Shown piece after piece: positions 40 to 6,454 of a stretch of DNA of 6,454 bases (position 1 is the first letter of the stretch; every line of letters begins with the position of its first letter). Location of the stretch: positions 1 to 6,454 of the forward strand of contig JAJRTK010000197.1 of assembly GCA_024278345.1 (NCBI GenBank), in the 5' to 3' direction. The notes beneath the pieces were generated by a model. It was not told the origin of the DNA. It saw only the letters and a program-made list of their open reading frames with translations, and did not search any database. This stretch comes from a bacterium (GTDB taxonomy: Bacteria; CSSED10-310; JAJRTK01). A program made the position numbers and the translations under genes.

Positions 40-1068
40 CTAGATTGCCTTCGGCTTGCTGGAGACGATTTTGTAGCGTTTGCCGTCGGTGAAGAGGAGG
101 ATGTGTCCGCTTCTGTCGGTTCTGTGGACCTTTGCGCCGATGGCAGCGTAGCGCTTGAGGGTTTCCTCGTGGGGGTGGCCGAAGAGATTGTTCCGGCCGC
201 AGGAGACGAAGACGTGAAGGGGTCTTGTGAGGTCGAGGAAAAGTTTCGAGCTGGCATAGCGGGAGCCGTGGTGGGCGGCCTTTAGGAAGGTAGACCGGAG
301 GCCGTCGCCATATTCGGCAAGGTCGTGTTCGGTTTCTTCTTCGGCATCGCCGGGGAGCAGAATGCTGACGCGGCCATAGGCCAGGCGGAGAACCAGGCTG
401 TTGGCGTTGGCGTCGGACCGAGAGCCGGAAATGTAGGGCCGTGGCGGGGCCAGGATCTGAGCGGCCACTTCGTTGCCAAAATCGAGGCGGTCTCCGGGCT
501 TTACGATTTGGTAGTCGATGGCGCCCGCCGATTTTTCGATGGTTTCCAGAACATCCAGGTAGAGCGGTGAAGTGAAGGCGAAGCCGGGATCGTAGAATCT
601 CTGGACGGGGATGGATTCCAGGATGTAGGGGAGTCCTCCGATGTGATCGGCATGAGCGTGAGACATGACGAAGGCGTCGAGCTGGTGGATGCCGTGTTCT
701 TGGAAGAATGGCAAGATCCGGTCCCGGCCGGCGGAGAATCCTTTCTGGAGGTCTGGTCCCGGTCCGGCATCGATAAGGATGTTCCGCTTGTCGGGGGTTT
801 GGATGAAGATGGAGTCTCCCTGGCCGATGTCCAAGAAGGCGACGATCAATTGGCCGTCCGGGAATGGAAGGATGGTCCTTGCCTGAGGATCGGCGGCAAA
901 GAGAAGATTGGAGAGCCAGAGGCTGGCACAAACCAGGGCGAAAGCCAGCAGGAAGAGGTTTTCCTTGCAGAGCAGCCGTCCTCTTGCCGCGAAGAAGCTT
1001 GCCTGGATCGCCCGTCGCTGAGCGATGTGGCGGTCAAGTCTTTTCCGGATTGGCGAAGAGGAGGGCAT
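40..1068 (-). CDS. Membrane-anchored metallo-beta-lactamase-fold hydrolase, ComEC C-terminal-domain type
   Basis: Predicted metal-dependent hydrolase of the ComEC/Rec2-related metallo-beta-lactamase superfamily, probably acting outside the cytoplasmic membrane. From the ATG at 1068 it is 342 aa. A basic N-terminus is followed by one hydrophobic segment (about 38-58). The fold then shows FLDIGQGDS (78-86), LIDAGPG (98-104), the metal-binding SHAHADHIGG (136-145), PGDAEEE (239-245), AAHHGS (264-269) and FGHPH (296-300). All motifs expected of the family are present, so it looks active. Full ComEC DNA-uptake channels carry many membrane helices and a competence domain; these are absent, so this is a stand-alone hydrolase domain and a role in DNA uptake cannot be assumed. 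Nuclease or phosphodiesterase activity is inference. An in-frame ATG at 1161 would add 31 residues but has no Shine-Dalgarno; the ATG at 1068 has AAGGA 5 nt upstream, hence this start. A fragment of a second copy lies at 4587-4640. Confidence 0.88.
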   Translation of the reverse strand: MPSSSPIRKRLDRHIAQRRAIQASFFAARGRLLCKENLFLLAFALVCASLWLSNLLFAADPQARTILPFPDGQLIVAFLDIGQGDSIFIQTPDKRNILIDAGPGPDLQKGFSAGRDRILPFFQEHGIHQLDAFVMSHAHADHIGGLPYILESIPVQRFYDPGFAFTSPLYLDVLETIEKSAGAIDYQIVKPGDRLDFGNEVAAQILAPPRPYISGSRSDANANSLVLRLAYGRVSILLPGDAEEETEHDLAEYGDGLRSTFLKAAHHGSRYASSKLFLDLTRPLHVFVSCGRNNLFGHPHEETLKRYAAIGAKVHRTDRSGHILLFTDGKRYKIVSSKPKAI

Positions 1069-1073
1069 GGCAT

Positions 1074-1078
1074 TCCTT
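1074..1078 (-). promoter_or_regulatory. Ribosome binding site deciding the start of the ComEC-like gene
   Basis: Read on the minus strand, AAGGA is followed by a 5-nt spacer and the ATG at 1068-1066. The upstream in-frame ATG at 1161-1159 has no comparable motif before it. This supports the shorter 342-aa protein. Confidence 0.55.
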
Positions 1079-1157
1079 AGATGGCAGGTTCTGATCGGTG
1101 GTTTCGGGCCTTGTGAGCTGTTGCCGGGGAGTGGCTCATCGCGCCGGTTTTTCTCCT

Positions 1158-1245
1158 TCATAAGACCGTACTAAGACTGTCTTTCGAAAGGCTACACGAA
1201 GCGGGAGCTGGAAGTCTAGTTTGCTCCCATGGGGCTGCGTAGGGT
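1158..1245. repeat. Spacer repeat, left copy (direct repeat of 4638-4725)
   Basis: This non-coding spacer between the ComEC-like gene and the regulator fragment is repeated at an offset of exactly 3480 bp. Counting by eye, 81 of 88 positions agree; 1171-1227 is identical over 57 bp, and the last 18 bp differ at three sites (1228, 1231, 1235). It contains the perfect 10-bp palindrome CTTTCGAAAG at 1181-1190. Its position between divergent genes suggests promoter or operator content, but I see no convincing -35/-10 pair in this copy. Homology to the right copy stops at 1245, just before the place where the right copy has a possible -10 element. Confidence 0.92.
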
Positions 1246-1256
1246 CATCGGCGCCG

Positions 1257-1382
1257 GTTGATCGCGATGATGGCCTTGCCCACGGTGCTGGCGATTGTGT
1301 TGAGAAGCCCTTCAACGATGAGGATCTGTTGGCGAAAACCGGTTGCGCTACTCAAGCTCCGGGAACTGAGTGAGTCGCTCCG
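1257..1382 (+). pseudogene. Fragment of a response regulator receiver domain, frameshifted, paralogous to 5059-5183
   Basis: This stretch aligns with the end of the receiver domain and the linker of the intact regulator gene (5059-5183) at roughly 75-80% nucleotide identity. The frame starting at 1257 reads VDRDDGLAHGAGDCVEKPFN and continues DEDLLAK, matching the intact protein's ADRIDGLTHGADDYIGKPFN and NEELLAK; the conserved Lys-Pro of the receiver is kept. About one extra base near 1341-1345 then shifts the frame, and homology continues in the next frame as ALLKLRELSESLR. The receiver N-terminus with the acidic pair and phosphoacceptor Asp is missing: compared with the right copy, 322 bp are lost between the spacer repeat and this fragment. 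No histidine box follows. An open frame runs on to a TAA at 1471-1473 but mixes the two frames and is not a credible gene. Confidence 0.85.
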
Positions 1383-1438
1383 TATGGAGCATCAATGCAG
1401 TCCTTGGCTTACGGAAGACTTGGCAATTGAGTCGAAGC

Positions 1439-1469
1439 CTGAGGGAAACGCAACCTGCGTTCTGAGGGA
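1439..1469 (+). other. Small hairpin flanked by an 8-bp direct repeat, just before the next gene's ribosome binding site
   Basis: AACGCA (1447-1452) and TGCGTT (1456-1461) form a 6-bp stem with a 3-nt loop, flanked by CTGAGGGA at 1439-1446 and 1462-1469. The right-hand repeat contains the GAGGG (1464-1468) that could serve as Shine-Dalgarno for the ATG at 1476, so the stem could affect access to it. This could also be chance. Confidence 0.3.
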
Positions 1470-1475
1470 TTAAGA

Positions 1476-2738
1476 ATGAGATGCAACCTCGGAGTTCTCC
1501 CGAGTCTTTCACGATGGAGGGTTGCGAAGCAGTGCCAGACGGGCCTTCACGAAGTGCTAGGATCGAATGGTGTCAGCGGCGTAGGCGCCACTGGGTGGAG
1601 GAGTCGCCACTTGCGAAGGGGCTGGTGGGGGAGGTGGCTTGGATGCTGGAGCTCCGTGGTGAGATGTTCGGGACTCATCTTCTTTTTGGTCGAATCCCTT
1701 TCCGGTTTTGCCTCGCAGTCCCTTGGAACTCCTCTTGCCAGGGATCTGGCGACTCTTGTGGTCTATTCCAACGCAGACCGTGATCGGCTGGTTGTTGACG
1801 GGAGAGATTACGGTTCGACTCGAAGTGGTGGCAGGTCCATCGAAGTGTCTCTGGGGCGACACGAGGTTCGAGTGGAAAAAGGGCTCATCGGTTGTGAGAT
1901 TCGGGTCTGGTTGCGAAAAGGGGAAGAGCTTACCCTGTATGCAGATCCTTGGAAGAACAGCTTCGGGCTGGTTTCCTCACTTGGCCAACCCGTTACGTCG
2001 AAGGTCGAGAGGAATGGCGATTTTTGTTTTGACTGCGCCACAGTTCGAGTGGCCAATCAGTGCAATCGAGCACTTTGGATCGCCATGTACCTCAAGGGCT
2101 ACCGAGCCGATGTTTGGGAAATGCACAAGTGGTACAGGTTGAATCCTGGTGAGCAAACCGAAATTCTCAGCACGAGAAATCGGTATTTTGGAGTCTACGC
2201 CCAGAGTGCGGATTGGCAATCCTATTGGGCGGGAAATGCGAGGGAGGTCATCGATGGCGCGGAATATTGGTTCACGGAAGTCGATATCGGAACCCGGGTG
2301 ACCACCTACACTTATCGATTTGGTTGTGGCTCGGCTCCGACCGTAGATACTTTCTCTCAAAGCAGCAGAGGCAAGAAACCCGAAAGAGACGGGACACCAT
2401 TGCTTGCCTTGATGGCGCAAGTGCGGGGAAGTTGGATCGTCGAAAACTCAAAAGAGAGCTCAGTTATGCAAATGTGGATTCGAGCTGATGGGCAGGTAGA
2501 TCAGCTTCGCACTACCACGATGGGGATGCAATTCAATGGCGGAAAGCCTATTGTCGTTGATCGCAACGTTGGCACGATAAGGGTTGTCGCCGCAACAAAG
2601 ATGAAAATACAATTCAAACATTCGACTTTGACCGCGACCTATTGGCCGGAGACAGATCAGCTAGAGACTGTTTGCAGAGAGCCATATTATAGTCAGTATA
2701 TTTACGACCGACGGACGGGGACGAACCGTGGACGTTGA
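1476..2738 (+). CDS. Exported or membrane-anchored protein with PEGA-like and DUF1036-like regions, function unknown
   Basis: 420 aa; I do not recognise a named family over the whole length. Residues 1-60 are rich in Trp, Arg and Gly and look unlike a conserved domain. A hydrophobic stretch at about 61-80 (VVRCSGLIFFLVESLSGFAS) could be a signal peptide or anchor. Residues 92-157 (VVYSNADRDRLVVDG, then LGRHEVRVEKG) resemble a PEGA-type beta domain. Residues 188-270 (VRVANQCNRALWIAMYLKG, then KWYRLNPGEQTEI and RYFGVYAQ) resemble DUF1036-type domains. Residues 315-410 form a beta-rich C-terminal region starting GSWIVENSKESSVMQMW. These matches are from memory and approximate. The ATG at 1476 has GAGGG 7 nt upstream. 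In-frame GTGs at 1656 and 1659, with GGAG just before them, would give about 360 aa and place the hydrophobic stretch at the N-terminus, so the start is open. Base composition looks AT-richer than flanking genes (one 60-base stretch near 2600 is 45% GC). Confidence 0.7.
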   Translation: MRCNLGVLPSLSRWRVAKQCQTGLHEVLGSNGVSGVGATGWRSRHLRRGWWGRWLGCWSSVVRCSGLIFFLVESLSGFASQSLGTPLARDLATLVVYSNADRDRLVVDGRDYGSTRSGGRSIEVSLGRHEVRVEKGLIGCEIRVWLRKGEELTLYADPWKNSFGLVSSLGQPVTSKVERNGDFCFDCATVRVANQCNRALWIAMYLKGYRADVWEMHKWYRLNPGEQTEILSTRNRYFGVYAQSADWQSYWAGNAREVIDGAEYWFTEVDIGTRVTTYTYRFGCGSAPTVDTFSQSSRGKKPERDGTPLLALMAQVRGSWIVENSKESSVMQMWIRADGQVDQLRTTTMGMQFNGGKPIVVDRNVGTIRVVAATKMKIQFKHSTLTATYWPETDQLETVCREPYYSQYIYDRRTGTNRGR

Positions 2739-2757
2739 GCCGAGTGGGAGTTGCCGA

Positions 2758-2775
2758 ATTGGCTTTGCAGCCAAT
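2758..2775 (+). other. Hairpin in the spacer after the PEGA/DUF1036-like gene
   Basis: ATTGGCT (2758-2764) pairs perfectly with AGCCAAT (2769-2775) around a 4-nt loop. It starts 20 nt past the stop codon, 4 nt before a second and stronger hairpin. There is no U-tract, so factor-independent termination is not evident. Confidence 0.5.
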
Positions 2776-2779
2776 GATA

Positions 2780-2800
2780 GGGCAGGCGTCCCGCCTGCCC
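2780..2800. repeat. GC-rich palindromic element (9-bp stem, 3-nt loop)
   Basis: GGGCAGGCG (2780-2788), TCC loop, CGCCTGCCC (2792-2800): a perfect 9-bp inverted repeat. Weaker pairing of the flanking GATAG and CTATTATC may extend it. It resembles, from memory, a short palindromic sequence scattered between genes in several bacterial lineages, so it may be one member of a genome-wide interspersed family. It could also act as a transcript end or mRNA-stabilising stem between the genes ending at 2738 and starting at 2858. Only one copy is in this window. Confidence 0.6.
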
Positions 2801-2857
2801 TCGGGCTATTATCTGGGCCGTGAGAAGACTTCCGGTGGCTCCAGGTGAGGAGAAAAA

Positions 2858-4504
2858 ATGATGCGTTTCGCGGGTTTGCCTGTGCTGGTTTTGCTGACCT
2901 TCCTTGTTTTTGGGGGCCAGTTTCCAAGCCGCGCTCGGGCGGAGACCAACGGCTCGGAGAGCAAGCTTCAAGGCCTGGTGCCTTCCGATGCCACGATGGT
3001 GATGGTTCTCGATTCCAGAGCGATGGTTGGGTCGGAGTCTCTCCGTGATATCTGGGAGGTGTTCAAGTGGTTCCTTCCGGAGGTTTCAAGGTCTGTTCCG
3101 GCCTTTCTGGCCCAATGCCACCTCGATTTTTCTCGCGACCCTTTCTCATTCATCGTTTCCATTGATCCCAGGGGGTTCGTGTTGGCCGTCGTGGGCGACC
3201 TGGACAAAGAAGCGGTTCTGCGGGCGTTCGATTCTCAGGGGCTGGCTGTTTCAAAGCAATCTTACAAGGGGCATGTTCTCTATTCTCTTTCCGCAGGCGA
3301 CGAACAAGGGGAACAAGGGGGCGCTTCCTCTTCCATGGCCTTTTTGCCCCATGGGCTGCTCCTAGGCCCGACGGAATCCGTGCAAGTGAGTATGGGAAGC
3401 ACGGAGATCCCGAGGCAGGCGATGCTCGTTCCGCCCTCCTCGGGAAGCCTTCTGACCTTGGCTTGGGGAAAACCGGAATTGGAGCTTGCCGGAGAGCACG
3501 TTCCGTCCAAGGTGCCACCGACTTTTCCCAGTGTTTTGCGCAATCTAAAAAGTCTGCGCCTACGATTTGGCTTGCGGGAGGAGATGGCGTTGGAGTTTGC
3601 GGCAACGTTTGAGAGCAGTGCTGACGCTCGCGCTTTTCAGGCTCTCCTTGAAGAGATGAGGCGAACGGTGGTTTCGGGCCAATGGATTCATACCGAGAGC
3701 GGTGCAATCATACCGGAGCTCTATCTGTCCAGCCCACTGTCACCCGTCAACCCTGATGTGCAAGAAATGGCTCGGAATGCGGCGGTGGCTTCTTACGATG
3801 CGAGGGTTGCGGCGCGGATCGTGGTGCCTGGTGACTTGACGCGGGCAATGGTACGTCAGATTCAGCGTGAAATGACTGCCCAAAATGTAAGGGAGACCAA
3901 TACGGGTACGGAGATCCGGCTTCCTTCAGCGCCGTTATCCTGGACATTGCACCAATCCCAGGGATCTCTGAGTTATTATGCCACCGAGTTTGCCAGCGGC
4001 GGGGGCTCCCTTCAGGTTTCAAAAAAACTGATGAGCGCGGAGCTCAAGCGGAGATCCACCAGCGAGCTAGTCCAGGGAATCAGAGCCTCTTTACTGCAGG
4101 CCGGGTTTTCTGTGGTTTCCCTGAGAATCGCGGCAACCAGCAAAGCCAGAGAAGCCATCGCAATCGAGTACCGGGAAGGAGGGATCTCCCACTACTTGAT
4201 CGCGTTTTCCAAGGATGAGATGGAGAAGACCGGATTGGTGGAATACCTCTATTATGTGGACGGTTGGTCAGGCTCGCCGGAAAACTTTTCCGTGATCAAG
4301 GAGACAGTGGAATTCGTTGCCATGGGAATTATTGGGAATGTTTCCTCCGAGGTTGCCGCCATCCATGTCCGCCAACAGATGCGGGACTATGTCAACGATT
4401 ACCGCCTGATGTCCAACACTTTGACCATGATGCACAATTCAAGCATGGCAATCATAGCCAATATGCCGGGGGCCGAGGGTTGGGTCGTGGTGGATCCGAA
4501 CTGA
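2858..4504 (+). CDS. Secreted protein of unknown function (548 aa)
   Basis: I cannot assign this to a family with confidence. The N-terminus is a textbook signal peptide: MMR, a hydrophobic core (about 7-20), then FPSRARA with probable cleavage after Ala28. The mature protein opens with a segment (about 37-55, LVPSDATMVMVLDSRAMVGS) of the kind seen in periplasmic proteins of the DUF3352 sort; this is only a resemblance. The rest alternates beta-like and helical segments with no visible catalytic motif and no second membrane segment. Cysteine is almost absent (one at about residue 87), and there is no lipobox. The start is clear: GAGGAG (2846-2851) lies 6 nt before the ATG. The gene is 119 bp from the upstream orphan gene and separated from it by two hairpins, so co-transcription is uncertain. 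It ends 82 bp before the fragment of the ComEC-like gene, so the two orphan genes sit between the two copies of the duplicated unit. Confidence 0.8.
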   Translation: MMRFAGLPVLVLLTFLVFGGQFPSRARAETNGSESKLQGLVPSDATMVMVLDSRAMVGSESLRDIWEVFKWFLPEVSRSVPAFLAQCHLDFSRDPFSFIVSIDPRGFVLAVVGDLDKEAVLRAFDSQGLAVSKQSYKGHVLYSLSAGDEQGEQGGASSSMAFLPHGLLLGPTESVQVSMGSTEIPRQAMLVPPSSGSLLTLAWGKPELELAGEHVPSKVPPTFPSVLRNLKSLRLRFGLREEMALEFAATFESSADARAFQALLEEMRRTVVSGQWIHTESGAIIPELYLSSPLSPVNPDVQEMARNAAVASYDARVAARIVVPGDLTRAMVRQIQREMTAQNVRETNTGTEIRLPSAPLSWTLHQSQGSLSYYATEFASGGGSLQVSKKLMSAELKRRSTSELVQGIRASLLQAGFSVVSLRIAATSKAREAIAIEYREGGISHYLIAFSKDEMEKTGLVEYLYYVDGWSGSPENFSVIKETVEFVAMGIIGNVSSEVAAIHVRQQMRDYVNDYRLMSNTLTMMHNSSMAIIANMPGAEGWVVVDPN

Positions 4505-4586
4505 CCTTTCCTTCTGGTGCTAGAGGACCGAAACCACGGGAATTGCCAGGATTGGCCCCATGGAAGTGCCATCAGATTCCCAGCGG

Positions 4587-4640
4587 GTGAAGGCGAAGCC
4601 GGGATCGTAGAATGTCTGGATGGGGATGATGTGGCGGTCA
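4587..4640 (-). pseudogene. Internally deleted fragment of a second ComEC-like hydrolase gene
   Basis: Positions 4587-4628 match 572-613 inside the intact hydrolase gene at 40 of 42 positions; on the minus strand they read IPIQTFYDPGFAFT against IPVQRFYDPGFAFT. The sequence then jumps: 4628-4640 is identical over 13 bp to 1024-1036, near the 5' end of the gene (coding LDRHI). It jumps again at 4638-4640 into the spacer repeat. Offsets of 4015, 3604 and 3480 bp mean deletions of 411 and 124 bp relative to the intact copy. Metal-site motifs and the start codon region are gone, so this cannot encode a working enzyme. Everything left of 4587 (4505-4586) shows no clear similarity to the hydrolase gene. 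Confidence 0.87.
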
Positions 4641-4725
4641 GGAGGCCGTGCTAAGACTGTCTTTCGAAAGGCTACACGAAGCGGGAGCTGGAAGTCTAGT
4701 TTGCTCCTATTGGGTTGCGTAGGGT
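4638..4725. repeat. Spacer repeat, right copy (direct repeat of 1158-1245)
   Basis: Second copy of the 88-bp spacer, including the 57-bp identical core (4651-4707) and the palindrome CTTTCGAAAG at 4661-4670. Here it lies directly upstream of the intact regulator gene, 42 bp from its start, so it probably forms part of that gene's promoter region. Divergence between copies is confined to the two ends. Confidence 0.92.
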
Positions 4726-4730
4726 AGAAT
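4701..4730 (+). promoter_or_regulatory. Possible promoter of the regulator gene
   Basis: TTGCTC (4701-4706) and TAGAAT (4725-4730) are separated by 18 nt. The -10 matches the sigma-70 consensus at five of six positions, the -35 only at three. It would give a leader of about 30 nt. In the left repeat copy TTGCTC is kept but TAGAAT is not, consistent with that copy no longer driving a regulator gene. This rests on consensus matching by eye. Confidence 0.3.
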
Positions 4731-4756
4731 CTTTCCTAGGCAACAACCTGCAGCTT

Positions 4757-4761
4757 GGAGG
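4757..4761 (+). promoter_or_regulatory. Ribosome binding site deciding the regulator start
   Basis: GGAGG directly abuts an ATG at 4762, leaving no spacer, but lies 6 nt before the in-frame ATG at 4768. The second ATG is therefore the likely start. Confidence 0.65.
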
Positions 4762-4767
4762 ATGCCG

Positions 4768-5442
4768 ATGGTTTCCCACGCTGACGATGGAGCGGGGCGA
4801 CAGACAATCCTTGTGGTCGATGACCTGTTCGCGAACCGTCTTTCGCTGGAGGCATTGCTCACCAAGGCCAATTATCGGGTTGTCACCGCGGCGGACGGGA
4901 AGGAGGCGCTGGCACTGGTGGAGAGGGAAAAGCCAGCTCTGGTGCTGCTGGATGTCTTGATGCCAGTGATGTCTGGAACGGAAGTCCTCCAGGAGCTCAA
5001 GCGCCGGGATGAGACTCGCTTGATCCCGGTGGTCATGCTTTCTATCCAGTCGGCCATCGCTGATCGCATCGACGGCTTGACCCACGGTGCCGACGATTAT
5101 ATTGGAAAGCCCTTCAACAACGAGGAGCTGCTAGCCAAAATCCGGGCGCTCCTCAAGATCCGCGATCTGAGTGAGCAGCTCCGCAACGCGGAAAAGCTGG
5201 CGGTTTTGGCTCAGGTGGCCGTCAGCGTCAATCACCAGATCAACAATCCCCTTTCGGCGATCCTCTATTCCGTGGAACTGCTGGAGCATGATTTGGGTGG
5301 GGATGAGCAAGGAGCGCGGGAGCAATTGCAGACCATTCGGGATGCGCTGGAGCGGATCAAGTCGGTGATGTTTCGCCTTCGGGGCGCCACTGAAGTGGTT
5401 CCAATTTGCTATTTGGGCGACATTGAGATGTTGGATTTCTGA
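4768..5442 (+). CDS. Response regulator receiver fused to a histidine phosphotransfer (HisKA-like) domain, no ATPase domain
   Basis: 224-aa cytoplasmic two-component protein. Residues about 13-130 form a CheY-like receiver with all key residues: acidic pair Asp18-Asp19, phosphoacceptor Asp62 (VLLDVLMP), Ser92, and Lys114-Pro115 (GKPF). A helical linker (LLKIRDLSEQLRNAEKL) leads to a HisKA-type dimerisation helix with the H-box VSVNHQINNPLSAIL, phosphorylatable His156, and a second helix (about 182-205). The protein ends about 20 residues later without the N, G1 and G2 boxes of a kinase ATPase domain, so it cannot autophosphorylate. It could relay phosphate between its receiver and histidine or pass it to a partner, as stand-alone phosphotransferases do; this is inference. 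The usual Glu/Asp after the H-box His is Gln here. There is no DNA-binding domain. The gene lies downstream of the right spacer repeat, and a decayed paralog lies at 1257-1382. tpiA starts 64 bp downstream. Confidence 0.88.
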   Translation: MVSHADDGAGRQTILVVDDLFANRLSLEALLTKANYRVVTAADGKEALALVEREKPALVLLDVLMPVMSGTEVLQELKRRDETRLIPVVMLSIQSAIADRIDGLTHGADDYIGKPFNNEELLAKIRALLKIRDLSEQLRNAEKLAVLAQVAVSVNHQINNPLSAILYSVELLEHDLGGDEQGAREQLQTIRDALERIKSVMFRLRGATEVVPICYLGDIEMLDF

Positions 5443-5506: not shown

Positions 5507-6415
5507 GTGGCCCAAGTCATTAGTGAATGGGAAGTGCGTGCGGCAGCGTCTTCGGGTTTTTTGATGGTGCCGGAGGGCGCGTTGGTGACTCCTCTTGCTC
5601 GTGAGGTTGCTCGGGACTTGGGAATCAAGCTTGGCAGTCGCCCTCGGGTGGAGCGGCGGAAATTCGTCTTCGGTAATTGGAAGATGAACCTGTCCTTGGA
5701 TGCCGCGGTCTGGCTTCTTCAGTCTCTTGCCGGTGCGCCGGAGTTGCGCTCTTGTCGGGCTGGGATAGGGGTTTTCCCGTCCTACCCCTACCTGGTGCTG
5801 GCCAAGGCGCTGCTGGAGGGGAGTTGTATTGGTCTGGGCGCCCAGGATTTGCACCAGGAAAAGGAGGGTGCCTTTACGGGTGAGGTCTCCGGCTCCATGC
5901 TGGAGAGTCTGTGCCAATATGTGCTGGTGGGCCATTCGGAGCGTCGGCGTTACCGGGACGAAACCTCTGACCTGGTTTGGAAGAAGGCCAAGGTGGCGCT
6001 GGCCCATGGCTTGACGGCGGTTGTGTGCGTTGGTGAATCGGCTCGGGATCGCGAGGGGAACCGCACTTCGGTGGTGTTGCGTGAGCAATTGGCTGGAGTT
6101 TCGGCGGCAGTGGCTTCTGGTGAGGCCCAGCGGTTGATCGTCGCCTACGAGCCGATCTGGGCCATTGGAACTGGGCGGCGTGCGGGCCGGAGCGAAATTG
6201 AGTTAGCCCACGGTCAAATTAGGGGCCTGCTCCGCTCGGCTCTAGGGGACGTGGGCGATGAGATACCGATCTTGTATGGTGGAAGTGTTCAGCCAGATTC
6301 GTGTGCCGAGCTCGCGGCTTCGGTTTCCATTGATGGATTTCTAGTGGGAGGCGCATCCCTGGACGAGGATTCGTTCGTGGGGATTGCCATGGCCTTCCGG
6401 GAGACGAACGGATGA
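5507..6415 (+). CDS. tpiA: Triosephosphate isomerase with an EutQ-like N-terminal extension
   Basis: Interconverts glyceraldehyde 3-phosphate and dihydroxyacetone phosphate in the cytoplasm, serving glycolysis, gluconeogenesis or the Calvin cycle. The TIM barrel begins at about residue 51 with FVFGNWKMN (catalytic Lys59), then GAQDLH (111-116), VGHSERR (141-147, catalytic His143), AYEPIWAIGTG (213-223, catalytic Glu215), YGGSV (257-261) and LVGGASL (279-285). All catalytic and phosphate-binding motifs are intact. At 302 aa it is about 50 residues longer than the usual 250. The extra N-terminus contains ISEWEVRAAASSG and VPEGALVTPLAREVARDLGI, resembling the start of EutQ and related microcompartment-associated proteins, so it looks like a real small module. 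The start is GTG at 5507, with AGGGG (5494-5498) 8 nt upstream; starting later would cut into the extension. The next gene, an RpiB-type isomerase, overlaps the stop codon by ATGA, indicating an operon. Confidence 0.95.
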   Translation: MAQVISEWEVRAAASSGFLMVPEGALVTPLAREVARDLGIKLGSRPRVERRKFVFGNWKMNLSLDAAVWLLQSLAGAPELRSCRAGIGVFPSYPYLVLAKALLEGSCIGLGAQDLHQEKEGAFTGEVSGSMLESLCQYVLVGHSERRRYRDETSDLVWKKAKVALAHGLTAVVCVGESARDREGNRTSVVLREQLAGVSAAVASGEAQRLIVAYEPIWAIGTGRRAGRSEIELAHGQIRGLLRSALGDVGDEIPILYGGSVQPDSCAELAASVSIDGFLVGGASLDEDSFVGIAMAFRETNG

Positions 6416-6454
6416 GACTCTTGATCGTCGGTGCGGATCACGGTGGGTTCGAAC
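6412..6454 (+). CDS. rpiB: Ribose-5-phosphate isomerase B family (RpiB/LacAB), 5' part only
   Basis: Only the first 14 codons are in the window: MRLLIVGADHGGFE. This matches the conserved RpiB opening, (I/V)-G-x-DH-(A/G)-G-(F/Y)-E, which carries phosphate- and substrate-binding residues. RpiB interconverts ribose 5-phosphate and ribulose 5-phosphate; relatives act on galactose 6-phosphate, allose 6-phosphate or tetrose phosphates. The ATG overlaps the tpiA stop in an ATGA arrangement, suggesting translational coupling. Other TIM-RpiB pairs, such as those in erythritol catabolism, mean the substrate cannot be fixed from this fragment. The gene runs off the right edge. Confidence 0.8.
   Translation, partial: MRLLIVGADHGGFE

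Follow-up and report, generated by a model that had tools for sequence, protein, structure and literature searches.

The 6,454-base stretch of DNA that was analyzed here (the window) carries a hydrolase gene, an 88-bp spacer and a regulator gene twice over, and each copy of this unit has lost a different gene. The window is the whole of one contig (C121) of a 6.06-Mb draft genome in 550 contigs, which is 87.9% complete and 2.1% contaminated. In our judgement, its sequence is best read as a duplication that was followed by complementary decay. The gene-pair duplication is real but modest and ordinary in kind; as an example of complementary decay it is small and clean, and in it the divergent promoter region appears to outlast the genes on each side. 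The features of the window are as follows:

40-1161, minus strand: intact stand-alone MBL-fold hydrolase of the ComEC C-terminal type, 373 aa (Lactamase_B and TIGR00361 matches)
572-613: source-side copy of the hydrolase fragment, 95% identical to 4587-4628
1025-1036: second source-side hydrolase stretch, 12 nt, 12/12 identical to 4629-4640
1158-1245: left spacer copy, upstream of the hydrolase, 81/88 identical to 4638-4725, a pair unique in the genome
1248-1382, plus strand: dead response-regulator remnant, 30/133 mismatches against 5050-5183
1476-2738, plus strand: exported-type protein X with a borderline PEGA domain (PF08308, 19.1 bits against a cut-off of 20.8), start uncertain
2858-4504, plus strand: exported-type protein Y, 548 aa, with a paralogue at G000:C275
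4587-4640, minus strand: hydrolase remnant, 54 nt, 2/54 mismatches against 572-613 plus 1025-1036
4638-4725: right spacer copy, upstream of the regulator, 92% identical to 1158-1245
4762-5442, plus strand: intact REC-DHp protein, 226 aa (Response_reg 99.3 bits, HisKA 32.4 bits)
5507-6415: triosephosphate isomerase (TIM), downstream of the regulator
6412-6454: start of an RpiB-like gene (MRLLIVGADHGGFE), 14 codons, overlapping the TIM stop and cut by the contig end

When the window was compared with itself, three pairs of direct repeats rose above background, with order and orientation conserved between the copies: the hydrolase fragment (572-613/4587-4628; 95% identity, BLAST E 3e-10), the spacer (1158-1245/4638-4725; 92%, E 1e-25) and the regulator fragment (1248-1382/5050-5183; 76%, E 3e-22). 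A fourth, short match (1025-1036/4629-4640; 12/12 identical) links the hydrolase fragment with the spacer. The repeat-pair matches greatly exceed what chance would give; the short inverted repeats also present in the window were judged to be chance. A sequence-only reading of this DNA had described the order hydrolase (minus), spacer, regulator (plus) as occurring twice, and the three collinear two-copy stretches bear out both that order and the coordinates given for the two units. The complementary inactivation that it proposed is likewise borne out. The left hydrolase and the right regulator are open and full length; the left regulator and the right hydrolase are truncated, and the left regulator is frameshifted as well. 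What remains of the right hydrolase is 42 nt and 12 nt joined across a 411-nt deletion, with ~121 nt more deleted before the spacer. The left regulator remnant spans codons ~97-141 only, the start, the phosphorylation-site region and the C-terminal part being gone. A 1-nt deletion and a 2-nt insertion disrupt its frame relative to 5050-5183, and GAGDC stands in place of the GADDY/F (or similar) of related REC proteins, near-invariant REC positions having been replaced. Mismatches in this remnant fall on 14/44 third codon positions vs. 16/89 others (p = 0.08), which is suggestive only of a once-working paralogue. Alignment scores no better than those of shuffled sequences were obtained for regulator sequence at 1383-1475 and for diverged hydrolase sequence at 4505-4586. 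The deletion junctions share at most 1-3 nt, as would fit the usual pattern of illegitimate deletion.

The intact hydrolase had been read as a ComEC-like gene, and a ComEC-type MBL domain is indeed present, with a PF00753 (Lactamase_B) match of 53.5 bits, above the cut-off, and the motifs SHAHADH (HxHxDH type) and HHGS. The gene is nevertheless not ComEC: its TIGR00361 match (147 bits against a family cut-off of 190) is confined to the C-terminal third of ComEC, and the Competence membrane domain PF03772 was not found in 40-1161. No clear ribosome-binding sequence precedes the listed ATG at 1161; Met31 at 1071, with AAGGA in front, is likelier to be the true start. Similarly, the label of response regulator suits the REC domain of the protein at 4762-5442 but not its output, since a HisKA/DHp domain is present and a DNA-binding domain is absent. 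Both the REC and HisKA/DHp matches are above cut-off, and neither a HATPase nor a DNA-binding output domain was found by domain search. Full-length homologues of this protein (36-38%) occur outside the phylum in two genomes (G013 and G031; loci L206 and L207), each encoded directly downstream of a larger predicted protein. A scan of named genomes returned generic REC relatives only, a plasmid collection gave only relatives below 60% identity, and PADLOC gave only weak, generic MBL and REC matches. As for the two genes between the copies, X and Y look exported, as judged from their hydrophobic N-termini and as had been claimed, but they are not simply orphans. Y has a paralogue in its own genome (28% identity over 463 aa, E 2.6e-39), and X, with its borderline PEGA domain, has a single partial match there, on contig C211. 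A GC-rich palindrome, GGGCAGGCGTCCCGCCTGCCC, lies between X and Y at 2780-2806; it has the look of a dispersed repeat, and no exact copy was found in 668 kb of the same genome.

The two copies have not diverged equally. The hydrolase and spacer copies differ at 9/142 positions (6%) and the regulator copies at 30/133 (23%; Fisher p = 1.2e-4), and the contrast persists for the hydrolase fragments alone (2/54 vs. 30/133, p = 0.001). The divergence of the parts thus differs ~3.5-fold where one event would be expected to leave it similar; these estimates are rough since the fragments are short, and the contrast is softened somewhat by ascertainment, short fragments being detectable only when similar. 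A dead fragment should drift neutrally on either side of the unit, and a single event with one clock therefore does not fit. Duplication followed by reciprocal loss, as first suggested, stands as far as the repeats and the complementary losses are concerned, but not as one event of a single age (p ~1e-4). Functional constraint could account for the 57 identical nucleotides of the spacer (see below), but not for the near-identity of the dead hydrolase fragment. Two histories fit the unequal ages: the hydrolase-promoter side was either homogenized by gene conversion or copied once the regulator pair already existed.

We consider it somewhat probable that one local duplication was followed by complementary deletion, that the divergent promoter region was kept at both survivors and that conversion came later. 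In the single founding event, a short segment composed of the hydrolase (minus), the promoter region and the REC-DHp regulator (plus) would have been duplicated locally, with X and Y left between the copies. Internal deletions would have killed the regulator of the left copy and the hydrolase of the right copy, so that one working gene of each remains. The spacer would have been kept in both copies, acting leftwards for the hydrolase and rightwards for the regulator, and we propose that it survived twice because each remaining gene still needs it. The hydrolase-promoter side would have been homogenized after the regulator copies had diverged by ~23%, most simply by gene conversion, and now differs by 6%. 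Since the copies were redundant, chance could have removed either one of each gene, and the selection to keep both genes that the sequence-only reading suggested is conjectural. The 3.2 kb between the copies, where X and Y lie, calls for further events, a point against this account. Neither an ancestral compact unit nor two intact units was found in seven other genomes of the phylum, all of them from other families.

The unequal ages would also be expected had there been two events, an old duplication of the regulator and a later copying of a left-side hydrolase piece, with its promoter, to a place ahead of the right regulator, in which case the right hydrolase was never a whole gene. The much younger appearance of the hydrolase/spacer copies speaks for such a history, as does the lack of any detectable trace of the 3' half of the hydrolase at 4505-4586. 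However, the late copy must reproduce, on landing, the placement toward the regulator that is found in the left unit, whereas conversion after one duplication explains this placement without coincidence, and we regard two events as possible but rather unlikely. An assembly artefact, in which the contig joins variants of two strains or places, is brought to mind by a window that is an entire contig of a fragmented, slightly contaminated draft. Yet strain duplicates in a join would not show the 6-23% divergence and the separate deletions seen between these copies, and a long exact repeat at the breakpoint is absent; such an artefact is very improbable. Finally, two unrelated insertions of dispersed repeats might have carried the gene pieces by chance, and the genome does hold many dispersed repeat families. 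Direct repeats are common in 60 other contigs of the genome (668 kb), most of them dispersed families on 15-35 contigs or single-contig repeats, some inside genes, but the window repeats are members of none of these families. The sequence-only reading had held that many dispersed copies of the fragments would refute it; no further copy of the three repeats was found in the 6.06 Mb searched. Since other copies are absent from the draft genome, unrelated insertions are scarcely credible, the missing 12% of the genome being their only loophole. The dispersed repeats in the sampled contigs (L128-L199) are ~50-280 bp long, as in the GTGGGTCCAGGGAGC family, and those found on 15-35 of the 60 contigs often lie at contig ends.

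The spacer copies themselves show 7/88 mismatches and share a 57-nt identical core (1171-1227/4651-4707), which is upstream of both surviving genes. At the 23% divergence seen next door, a core of this length would arise by chance with a probability of (0.774)^57 = 5e-7, and it could represent a shared divergent promoter retained by both genes. By eye, a TAGAAT, which might serve as a -10 element, was noted directly after the right spacer, 18 nt past a TTGCTC, and TTGCTC-TAGAAT is a possible candidate for the regulator promoter. The left copy is without TAGAAT, its deletion starting exactly where the right copy has that motif. A consensus promoter scan found no promoter in either spacer. The identity of the core despite drift in the neighboring remnant could alternatively mean that selection acts on the spacer itself, as a regulatory site at two places with the gene fragments as passengers. 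Against this, there is no other copy in the genome, and the other genomes of the phylum gave no convincing match (best E 0.34); Rfam holds no matching RNA family, and fold z-scores of -1.5 to 1.3 on both strands indicate no unusually stable fold. The core also had no match in IMG/VR. Moreover, recency or conversion accounts for the identity equally well, leaving a selected spacer improbable.

In seven other genomes of the phylum, every one from another family, the hydrolase homologues belong to a different operon, and the loci read there showed no regulator homologue next to them. The homologue is downstream of ComEC and a ComEA-like helix-hairpin-helix (HhH) gene in three genomes (G001, G002, G007) and follows the ComEA-like gene on another contig in a fourth (G003). 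It is followed by a PD-(D/E)XK gene in G002, G003, G005, and G007. DeoC and thymidine phosphorylase are encoded upstream of ComEC in G001, G002, G003, G005, and G007, with a BMC-H shell gene ahead of them in G001, G003, and G007. The five genomes thus share a cluster of the form (BMC-H shell)-DeoC-thymidine phosphorylase-ComEC-ComEA-like HhH-(MBL hydrolase-PD-(D/E)XK), in which DNA-uptake genes are linked to deoxyribose catabolism (L200:8588-16196, L203:2261-10919, L231:8269-14694, L204:2083-11041, L275:817-6898). Among 30 DeoA loci fetched from a search of 386 genomes, ComEC adjoined DeoA only in loci of this phylum. In the genome of the window, the operon appears dispersed, since ComEC-ComEA (C466), BMC-H-DeoC (C353), DeoA (C57) and the hydrolase are on separate contigs. 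The DeoC on C353 (L230:10141-11578), next to the shell gene, has an encapsulation-like N-terminus, and the neighbors of the pair are a PhoD-like phosphatase and a family 5 solute-binding protein in place of ComEC.

At the right end of the window, TIM has an N-terminal extension of ~45 aa (VPEGALVTPLAREVARDLGIKL; window 5507-5660) with matches in three other genomes: an RpiB has it as its C-terminal tail (G004), a small protein encoded downstream of AldDH carries it close to a shell gene (G075), and it recurs in a frame that adjoins DeoC and a shell gene (G079; L237:931-1647, L238:1234-1725, and L243 near 8770). The extension resembles the microcompartment type, and a second, standard TIM is encoded on contig C91. 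Metabolosomes of the SPU (sugar phosphate utilization) type are marked by DeoC and RpiB, joined by TIM in one founding example; they have been proposed to degrade DNA-derived sugars (PMC4207490, PMC8217296), with detritus suggested as the source of the DNA (PMC8217296). Tentatively, we picture a DNA-as-food system in this phylum, in which DNA would be taken up by ComEC/ComEA and cut by the MBL hydrolase and PD-(D/E)XK protein, and deoxyribose burnt via DeoA, DeoC, TIM, and RpiB in a microcompartment. Here the hydrolase would have left the uptake operon and been paired with the REC-DHp regulator beside TIM-RpiB, the pair then being duplicated and pruned with the shared promoter kept at both genes; this is possible, though doubtful as a whole. 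Neither "competence" nor "nuclease" appears as a word in the main text of the 2021 catalogue (PMC8217296), and no paper on microcompartments together with ComEC was found in a literature search outside which most subscription papers fell; the link between DNA uptake and microcompartments may therefore be unreported so far. With an uptake route encoded in the same operon, the idea of a DNA-burning microcompartment (PMC8217296) would become testable. This link, in which a hydrolase family is physically tied to DNA-uptake genes and deoxyribose-microcompartment enzymes in several families of a phylum about which little is known, is of more interest than the duplication itself and merits separate study.

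Set against known systems, the window resembles reciprocal loss after local duplication in that each copy retains one gene and a remnant of the other; it departs from that pattern in the unequal ages of its parts and in the missing outgroup with the ancestral state. Residues 107-352 of the hydrolase align with ComEC/Rec2 (TIGR00361) 443-663, and the MBL metal motifs are present, but the window protein stands alone with a hydrophobic N-terminal segment, lacks PF03772 and scores below the family cut-off. SPU loci combine DeoC (PF01791), RpiB (PF02502) and shell genes; unlike these, the window contig has no shell protein, DeoC or AldDH, the shell and DeoC genes of this genome being on C353. On the side of resemblance, it ends in TIM and the start of an RpiB-like gene, and the TIM extension resembles tails found elsewhere beside AldDH, DeoC, and shell genes.
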